Shown: one piece after another, positions 3,132 through 5,724 of the stretch | Numbering within the stretch: position 1 is the stretch's first letter | Layout: the number at the start of each line of letters is the position of its first letter | Source of the DNA: an uncultured Alphaproteobacteria bacterium | GTDB taxonomy: Bacteria > Pseudomonadota > Alphaproteobacteria > Micropepsales > Micropepsaceae | Direction: 5' to 3' | Assembly: GCA_902826695.1 (NCBI GenBank) | Contig: CADEFU010000003.1 | Span: forward strand, 248,001-312,000 | Length of the DNA stretch: 64,000 bases | Translations under genes and position numbers: made by a program | The notes under the pieces: generated by a model | Told to the model about the DNA's origin: nothing | Databases searched by the model: none | What the model saw: the letters and a program-made list of their open reading frames with translations, nothing else

Positions 3132-3421
3132 ATGAGCAAACTGAATATAGGAGTCGGCGAGGAGTTTCCGTTGGACGACGCGCCGAGGAGCGAGCGCCAT
3201 CATCCTTGTGGCGCCCATTGGCGCACCGCATGCGCCGTCGCCACCATCGGCATCGTGCCGTCGCCACACTGCTGGTGTTGCCCGCGGCCGCCGCATCGGT
3301 GACAGCGGCAATCCTGTACCCGCTCGCGACATTGGGCGTGATCGGTGGGCTGGGTGCCGCGACTGCGATCTACCGTCACGCGCGCCGCGATGGCGCGAAC
3401 CCGCCGCAGGAGCAAAAGTGA
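3132..3421 (+). pseudogene. Small membrane protein gene, probably frameshifted
   Basis: An ATG at 3132 opens a frame reading MSKLNIGVGEEFPLDDAPRS then a His/Arg-rich stretch to HWR (codons ending at 3224). The neighbouring frame continues from there with HRMRRRHHRHR, a hydrophobic segment and a basic tail, ending at 3421. Neither half looks complete: the first frame turns into Cys/Pro-rich nonsense and stops at 3302, the second has only an internal ATG at 3230 (63 aa). The MSKLNIGVGEEFPLDD start resembles small alphaproteobacterial proteins (memory). A one-base loss near 3224, a sequencing error or a -1 ribosomal shift would each explain it. The transposon ends 60 bp upstream. Confidence 0.5.
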
Positions 3422-3681
3422 TGCGTCACCACGGATTTCATCACCGCCGCGCCGCCGCGGAAGGTGATCGCACGACGACGCGCGTCCAACTCGAACTCCC
3501 GCCGCAAGCAATGGAACGTCTTCAGCGACTTAAAGAGAAGACGGAAGCGGCATCCTATGCGGAAGTCATCCGCAACGCGCTTCGTCTGCTCGAAGCCCTC
3601 GTCGACGAACACGACAAAGGTGCCGAGTTCACGCTTCGCAAGCCCGATGGCGAGACGATCGCCTACAAAATCTTCGTCTAG
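3421..3681 (+). CDS. Ribbon-helix-helix (CopG-like) DNA-binding protein, 86 aa
   Basis: After a basic start (MRHHGFHHRR) comes TTTRVQLELPPQAMERLQRL and a second helix SYAEVIRNALRLLEALV, the beta-helix-helix layout of the RHH/CopG/MetJ fold (about residues 17-60), then a C-terminal strand region ending in YKIFV. RHH proteins bind operators as dimers. The ATG shares one base with the TGA of the preceding frame, and GGAG lies just upstream, so translation is coupled to the small membrane gene. It may regulate that gene; this is inferred from position only. Confidence 0.72.
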   Translation: MRHHGFHHRRAAAEGDRTTTRVQLELPPQAMERLQRLKEKTEAASYAEVIRNALRLLEALVDEHDKGAEFTLRKPDGETIAYKIFV

Positions 3682-3716: not shown

Positions 3717-4829
<1,113 letters not shown>

Positions 4830-4904: not shown

Positions 4905-5043
4905 GAGTCCGCGGCGGCCCCGATGTTGTGCCCTACCAAAACCGTCGCTAGACCTCGCGACGTTGAATCACGGATGACTCGCCGTCAATAAGTGTTTTGA
5001 ATCAGATCGTTAATCGCGGAATCGATCTTGAATCATCGGACTC
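4905..5043. promoter_or_regulatory. Cluster of seven GANTC sites upstream of ccrM
   Basis: GANTC occurs at 4905, 4965, 4976, 4999, 5019, 5030 and 5039. The last six fall within 79 bp. Three are in the repeated octamer TTGAATCA (4963, 4997, 5028). At this base composition about one site per 300 bp is expected. CcrM methylates this motif, so the methylation state of the region could feed back on ccrM transcription, as is known in Caulobacter with two leader sites. Confidence 0.8.
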
Positions 5044-5061
5044 GCGAACCACTAGATGTTG

Positions 5062-5107
5062 TTCGCGCTTAACGATGTTGCTGTGAATAAGTTTCGTTAA
5101 GCGCGAA
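5062..5107. promoter_or_regulatory. 14-bp inverted repeat enclosing a DnaA-box-like site
   Basis: TTCGCGCTTAACGA (5062-5075) and its exact complement (5094-5107) flank an 18-bp spacer. The spacer contains TGTGAATAA (5082-5090), the reverse of TTATTCACA, which fits the DnaA-box consensus TTATNCACA. Each arm contains TTAA, the core of a CtrA half-site, though not with the N7 spacing of a full CtrA box. It lies 11 bp after the rnhB stop, so a terminator role is also possible, but no T-run follows. Confidence 0.5.
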
Positions 5108-5118
5108 ACGCGCGCCGC

Positions 5119-5724
5119 TCAACTCGCGAAACGCAACTTCAACTGCGCGATCGGCGCAAAGCTTCTGCGATGATGTGCCGTCGGCCCCAGCCGATCGAGC
5201 GCGGCCAAGTGATCGGCCGTCCCATATCCTTTGTTGCGCGCCCAGTTGTAACCTGGATGCGCCGCGTCGAGTTCACACATGATGCGATCCCGCGTCACCT
5301 TGGCGACGATCGAAGCCGCCGCGATCGACATCGACTTCGCGTCGCCCTCGATGATCGTCTCGACCGGGCAGGCGAGGGCAGGGGCGCGGTTCCCGTCCAC
5401 GAACGCCATGACGGGCGCGAGCGAAAGCTGCTCCGTTGCCCGCCGCATGGCGAGCATCGTCGCTTGCAGGATGTTGATCTCGTCGATCTCCTCGACGCTC
5501 GCGCAGGCGATGCCGACGGCGAGCGCCCGCTCCATGATCTTCTCGAACGCCTTTTCGCGGGCCTCGGCCGTCATCGCTTTGGAGTCATCGAGTCCGCGCG
5601 GCAACCGTGCCGGATCCAAGATCACTGCGGCGGCAAACACGGGGCCGGCCAACGGTCCACGCCCAACCTCATCGATCCCCGCAACGGGGCCGTCGATCTT
5701 CCGTTCGCGCGTAAAAGACGGCAT
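5119..5724 (-). CDS. rnhB: Ribonuclease HII
   Basis: The 201-aa enzyme cleaves RNA embedded in duplex DNA, including single ribonucleotides. GIDEVGRGPLAG (residues 16-27) carries the first two metal ligands D18 and E19; D110 in FVDGNRAPAL and D128 in IEGDAKSMSIAAASIVAK complete the DEDD centre, and the C-terminal HHRRSFAPI motif is present. The usual DSKKLS motif reads DSKAMT, a mild deviation. Length is normal. It lies between the radical SAM gene (45 bp upstream) and ccrM, the order known from other alphaproteobacteria. Confidence 0.96.
   Translation of the reverse strand: MPSFTRERKIDGPVAGIDEVGRGPLAGPVFAAAVILDPARLPRGLDDSKAMTAEAREKAFEKIMERALAVGIACASVEEIDEINILQATMLAMRRATEQLSLAPVMAFVDGNRAPALACPVETIIEGDAKSMSIAAASIVAKVTRDRIMCELDAAHPGYNWARNKGYGTADHLAALDRLGPTAHHRRSFAPIAQLKLRFAS

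Follow-up and report, generated by a model that had tools for sequence, protein, structure and literature searches.

CcrM target sites lie within a predicted ccrM promoter core shared by many alphaproteobacteria

The window, as the whole stretch of DNA analysed is called here, spans 64 kb of a contig from an uncultured alphaproteobacterium of the family Micropepsaceae. On its minus strand is ccrM, encoding the GANTC adenine methyltransferase (3717–4814), with a start (MGVV...) that is conserved in the genus and an open frame extending to 4829. The gene is single-copy in the genome, and its product matches the NCBIfam model NF050803 (DnaMtaseCcrMCaul) over nearly the full length (E 3.4e-191), scoring 634.6 bits where the model cut-off is 830 bits. 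Upstream of ccrM, and also on the minus strand, is rnhB for ribonuclease HII (5119–5724; NF000595, E 4e-76), itself adjoined by a gene for a PA0069-family radical SAM protein (NF033668, 5770–6894). Convergent with ccrM is a reading frame for an 86-residue protein (3421–3681) without a match in NCBIfam, a similar sequence of which, judged by eye, also lies beside ccrM in another genome (G087, locus L002); downstream of ccrM, about 2.4 kb away, is an IS1595-family transposase (NF033547, 329–1267).

Between rnhB and ccrM are a cluster of GANTC sites and an inverted repeat. The sites start at 4905, 4965, 4976, 4999, 5019, 5030 and 5039, bearing out the count of the preliminary description (seven sites in 139 bp, six of them in 79 bp). 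The window as a whole is GANTC-poor, with 101 sites observed against a mean of 308 in shuffles, and when 101 sites were placed at random 20,000 times, a 79-bp span with six of them arose once and one with more than six never did. By eye, the cluster upstream of ccrM also forms the longest run of overlapping matches (six sites) when the genome is searched for triplets of closely spaced GANTC.

Superimposed on the cluster is a predicted minus-strand promoter of ccrM, composed of a −35 element TTGACG (4983–4988), a 17-bp spacer with GANTC sites and a −10 element CAACGT (4960–4965), with transcription predicted to start at about 4953. GANTC site 1 (4976–4980) lies within the spacer, at +8 from the start of TTGAC and about −27 from the predicted start, and the −10 element begins with the last C of site 2 (4965–4969, offset +19). 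Upstream of the −35 element and an A-tract is site 3 (4999–5003, offset −15), followed by three more sites of a ladder (5019–5043, offsets −35, −46 and −55); a site at −5 is absent from the window. The remaining GANTC, in the untranslated leader (4905–4909, offset +79), fits YGAKTCK on one strand by eye. In Caulobacter, ccrM is controlled by methylation of two leader sites. The preliminary description had placed a dense methylation-sensitive region upstream of ccrM; dense and conserved it is, but it sits in the ccrM promoter rather than beside it, and overlooked were the site inside the −35/−10 spacer and the one overlapping the −10 element. We predict that the dense GANTC region is the ccrM promoter itself, with CcrM target sites built into its core.

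A bare promoter pattern, TTGAC-N18-CANNNT, matches once in the 64-kb window and is not evidence by itself, because 0.98 matches are expected by chance; what argues for a ccrM promoter is its position across genomes. The family sample consists of 79 loci from 81 genomes with ccrM, G022 and G089 (5′ end missing) and a second piece from G090 having been dropped, and the class sample outside the family consists of the best 145 of 217 genomes with ccrM, ranked by likeness of CcrM to that of the window. The whole order is represented by one family, with 96 genomes of the family and, at a completeness of at least 90%, 64 genomes of the order. Defined without reference to GANTC (TTGAC, A at +24, T at +28), the promoter occurs exactly once in 183 of the 224 ccrM upstream regions (79 family loci and the best 145 of 217 from the class), including 76 of the 79 family loci, and not once on the reverse strand. 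The two bases correspond to positions 2 and 6 of a −10 hexamer separated from TTGACG by 17 bp, and have a family-weighted frequency of 1.00 in 143 loci chosen only by TTGAC and both GANTC sites. At −12, C is found in 177 of the 183 promoters, G in 4 and A in 2; T never occurs there, and C still prevails where site 2 has been lost (24/30). The −10 element is poor by this measure, and the absent T at −12 fits, as expected, a promoter that would need help.

The GANTC sites are locked to this promoter. Among loci fitting a stricter pattern with a narrower gap, site 2 ends at a constant 24 bp from TTGAC even as site 1 shifts (52/53 family and 54/58 class loci); the gap range was widened for the offset counts that follow, in which a one-base displacement of the L170 region leaves the offsets from TTGAC unaffected. 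In the 79 family loci a GANTC is found at +19 in 78, with only a handful at most neighbouring offsets, at +8, +9 or +10 in 77, at −14 to −17 in 78 and at −5 in 65, and further peaks near −35 and −44 are specific to the family. Class loci (best 145 of 217) have site 1 at +7 to +10 in 98 cases and site 2 at +19 in 77. A second recurrent element, TAA(C/G)-N4-TT-GANTC with an A-rich tract, was noted by eye just upstream of the −35 element in many families; in the window it occupies 4999–5013 on the minus strand and is not a full CtrA site.

Both core sites are present in 74 of the 79 family loci and in 67 of the 145 loci from other families (best 145 of 217), the other 78 lacking one or both. Taken by promoter, the 76 in the family comprise 74 with both sites and 2 with site 2 only, and the 83 from other families with GcrA comprise 54 with both, 17 with site 1, 5 with site 2 and 7 with neither (within the best 145 of 217). 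A GANTC in the region of site 3 (−22 to −13) accompanies 72/76 family promoters, 63/83 class promoters with GcrA and 19/24 without it (class, best 145 of 217). Counted per family (n = 70; class loci from the best 145 of 217), 55 have the promoter, 49 have at least one site in it and 33 have both, the defined promoter being absent in 15. A further set of 80 loci from named records, which overlaps the 224-locus set (for example, L090, L097, L098 and L100 are family genomes) and is not independent of it, contains 40 loci with both sites, 5 with site 2, 3 with site 1, 2 with the promoter and no sites, and 30 with no such promoter. Both sites are found in many Rhodobacteraceae (Rhodobacter, Paracoccus, Gemmobacter), Pelagibacteraceae, Kiloniella, Parvibaculum sedimenti and Desertibaculum; without them are all Caulobacter loci of this set, including Caulobacter sp. 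Root1455, in which the TTGAC promoter is present and both sites are absent, and also Phyllobacterium, Mesorhizobium and Thalassospira.

The core with two sites is class-wide, and only the ladder upstream of it special to the family of the window. Comparison with relatives, which had been proposed as a check, finds the number and spacing of GANTC sites conserved among family loci and so speaks for the finding; successive spacings are 9, 11, 20, 23 and 11 bp in the window and 10, 11, 20, 23 and 11 bp in G091. A perfect helical ladder was rejected, as spacings of 9–11, 14, 20 and 23 bp fit no single phase, and we claim an ordered spacing and nothing stronger.

The twin-site promoter is nearly private to ccrM. 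Searched for in 290 whole genomes, its pattern gives 103 matches in 89 genomes, against 5 for a reversed control. Placeable are the 82 matches in genomes whose own ccrM upstream region is in the sample; 75 of these lie at ccrM and 7 elsewhere. The other 21 belong to genomes whose ccrM upstream region is outside the sample, and 8 of them are copies of one repeat in genome G365. Although the pattern permits a range of lengths, 72 of the 75 matches at ccrM are of equal length. Within the family, a related pattern with a narrower gap is matched in 69 of 96 genomes, with 6 matches for the control. The G365 repeat occurs in eight places, mostly at contig ends, has the TTGAC...GANTC...GANTC order in a different geometry and is possibly a mobile element. 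Wide retention of the twin-site arrangement at ccrM among alphaproteobacteria, together with its near-absence from the rest of their genomes, suggests that CcrM probably controls the timing of its own synthesis.

Immediately beyond the rnhB stop codon is an unstranded feature, an exact 14-bp inverted repeat (5062–5107; arms 5062–5075 and 5094–5107), whose 18-nt spacer contains a DnaA-box match, TTATTCACA (5082–5090, minus strand, the sense strand of ccrM); repeat and box are as first described. The box is conserved in four of six loci of the genus, those of the four closest species, at −101 or −102 from the start of the −35 element (TTATTCACA, TTATTCACA, TTATACACA and TTATGCACA), the copies differing at no position other than the degenerate fifth (T, T, A and G). 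At most 350 bp upstream of ccrM, TTATNCACA occurs in 12 of 79 family loci (shuffle mean 0.2) and, among class loci (best 145 of 217), in 8/67 with both sites (shuffle 0.5) and 10/78 without (0.6); in another genus it lies at +37 to +39, just past the predicted start, in 7 loci. Two further loci, in families without detectable GcrA, have a box at +5 or +6, in the place of site 1 (L309 of f16, TTATCCACA; L214 of f113, TTATACACA). The suggestion that DnaA may be added to ccrM control draws strength from the conserved box, but place and presence vary by clade, and an addition clade by clade is plausible. As in DnaA-regulated cell-cycle promoters, TTATNCACA has a fixed place in the closest relatives; unlike in those, the place and presence of the predicted box shift between clades.

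The inverted repeat had been taken as part of the control region, a view that finds no support: it is complete only in the genome of the window and was rejected as a conserved operator. As RNA it would fold into a hairpin of −22.6 kcal/mol (z −3.8); it was rejected as a terminator, having no T-run and not being listed by a terminator scan, and an Rfam search for a conserved leader RNA gave no match. We regard the repeat as incidental.

Promoter geometry, the lock of GANTC to the promoter, conservation over many families and near-exclusive use at ccrM are direct observations, and their best reading, to which we give a probability of roughly 0.62, is methylation-gated autoregulation of ccrM, with a regulatory logic that we infer. 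The methylation state of the core sites would set ccrM transcription: passage of the replication fork would turn fully methylated sites hemimethylated and open the promoter, and newly made CcrM would re-methylate them and close it. In the genome of the window, a methyl-dependent complex of GcrA and sigma-70 at site 1 would be the likeliest activator, and at site 2, which overlaps the −10 element, the reader is likely to be a different one, either CcrM or RNA polymerase itself. The sequence does not fix whether the feedback is positive or negative, and activation by full methylation is just as conceivable.

The start of site 1, at about −28 to −25, resembles the placement of GANTC in methylation-controlled Caulobacter promoters. 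In the portions of the cited papers drawn on here, the GANTC of ctrA P1 is at −29 and that of podJ P2 at −24, with 11 of 96 cell-cycle starts having more than one GANTC within 50 bp and a single site being the rule (PMC4287350), and ftsZ has a GANTC between −35 and −10 (PMC3708114). Caulobacter ccrM is likewise described there as having a GANTC in its promoter and being transcribed only from hemimethylated DNA (PMC2217572). GcrA protects ctrA P1 from −35 to −10 when fully methylated and a smaller region when hemimethylated (PMC3667746, in the part used), footprints that by analogy would suit a promoter opening in the hemimethylated state and closing in the fully methylated one. With the GcrA- and CcrM-controlled sigma-70 promoters of Caulobacter (ctrA P1, ftsZ, mipZ and podJ P2) the ccrM promoter shares a GANTC in the core and, by our prediction, a timing tied to replication; those promoters, however, serve targets of CcrM and not ccrM, and here two sites are locked in place, one overlapping the −10 element.

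An ordinary GcrA-dependent promoter, with GcrA as the sole reader recruited together with sigma-70 by methylated GANTC in a positive feedback, would belong to a known class, and two GANTC sites do lie within −35/−10, at +8 and +19 from TTGAC. GcrA is present in 202 of 290 class genomes, including that of the window (PF07750, E 2.7e-49; a canonical 159-residue frame), and PMC7987155, as far as the part consulted goes, predicts ccrM as a core GcrA target. Within the best 145 of 217 class loci, site 1 is somewhat rarer in promoters without GcrA (16/24, versus 71/83 with it; Fisher p 0.07) and site 2 is not (18/24 versus 59/83; p 0.80), the shifts between the two sites with GcrA being suggestive only (p 0.07 and 0.08) and phylogenetically confounded. 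By eye, neither site 1 (CGAGTCA) nor site 2 (TGATTCA) of the window matches YGAKTCK on either strand; elsewhere site 1 matches it at a frequency of 0.49 in the family, 0.46 with GcrA and 0.38 without (class, best 145 of 217). The sites do not vanish where GcrA is absent, as this promoter type would lead one to expect. Loci with GcrA have both in 54 of 117 cases and those lacking it in 13 of 28 (best 145 of 217), and the mean number of GANTC from −60 to +19 is 3.42 and 3.46, respectively. The 24 promoters without GcrA comprise 13 with both sites, 3 with site 1, 5 with site 2 and 3 with neither (within the best 145 of 217), so that 21 keep at least one. Families without GcrA that have both sites are f42, f56, f57, f84, f85 and f102, with one genome of f76. 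In the 28 genomes, GcrA was not recovered by a permissive profile search or by a protein search, the latter finding it in 4 of 4 positive controls; the best weak PF07750 matches were translated and rejected as not GcrA-like. Because the sites persist equally in genomes without recognizable GcrA, GcrA is not the only reader, and its role as sole reader, weakened by these genomes, is unlikely.

The same persistence, the location of the sites in the −35/−10 spacer and across the −10 element, and a pattern nearly private to ccrM would also suit self-repression, in which CcrM binds its clustered unmethylated or hemimethylated target sites and blocks RNA polymerase; these substrate sites would vanish as CcrM works, however, and long-lasting binding would be needed, which makes this distinctly improbable. 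Still less probable is control by CtrA as in Caulobacter and Sinorhizobium with incidental GANTC sites. There is a TTAAC between ladder sites, ccrM is under the influence of CtrA in S. meliloti (PMC4433202, in the part used), and the arms of the inverted repeat each contain TTAA, as had been noted; but TTAA-N7-TTAA occurs in 0 of 79 family loci, where full CtrA sites were rejected as the main control, and the fixed placement of GANTC relative to the promoter extends over many families. Among class loci without the twin sites, 5 of 78 have TTAA-N7-TTAA (within the best 145 of 217). That the sites cluster by chance, or that the loci simply inherited a single intergenic sequence, could be argued from the relatedness of the loci, but the central base and flanks vary while GA and TC stay, both sites occur in 33 of 70 families (class loci from the best 145 of 217) and the pattern has 103 matches against 5 reversed; these counts already contradict such a view.

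A bolder reading we put forward as tentative and rather doubtful: most alphaproteobacteria would share a promoter dedicated to ccrM at which RNA polymerase (or CcrM) reads GANTC methylation directly, without GcrA, as a self-timing replication sensor, and GcrA, DnaA or CtrA would be layered on by lineage. The CtrA-type promoter of Caulobacter crescentus and rhizobia serves the same gene and in Caulobacter is methylation-sensitive, but the Caulobacter, Phyllobacterium and Mesorhizobium loci are without the twin-site promoter, and ccrM of Caulobacter and Sinorhizobium is CtrA-activated according to the parts of PMC2217572 and PMC4433202 used. An earlier comparative study reported DnaA motifs at ccrM loci that lack CtrA sites (PMC2877005, in part). 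The 2021 paper, in the part available, agrees with our results in predicting that ccrM is a core GcrA target in many orders but no longer so in Caulobacterales and Parvularculales, and differs in scoring YGAKTCK regardless of position and in GcrA-bearing genomes only, with no promoter geometry or ladder in that part (PMC7987155). In the literature searched, which mostly leaves out subscription papers and was seen in part, no description was found of the twin-site promoter, the −10 lock or the persistence without GcrA. The class-wide twin-site core is our main result, with the family ladder as an elaboration; GcrA control of ccrM had already been predicted (PMC7987155, in the part available).

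How CcrM is restricted to a brief interval of the cell cycle is understood chiefly from Caulobacter, whose ccrM promoter is of the other type. A core-site promoter kept from Pelagibacteraceae to Rhodobacteraceae to the order of the window would make Caulobacter the exception, and would give these bacteria a compact, replication-triggered pulse generator. Because the promoter persists without GcrA, one can test directly whether RNA polymerase itself reads m6A.
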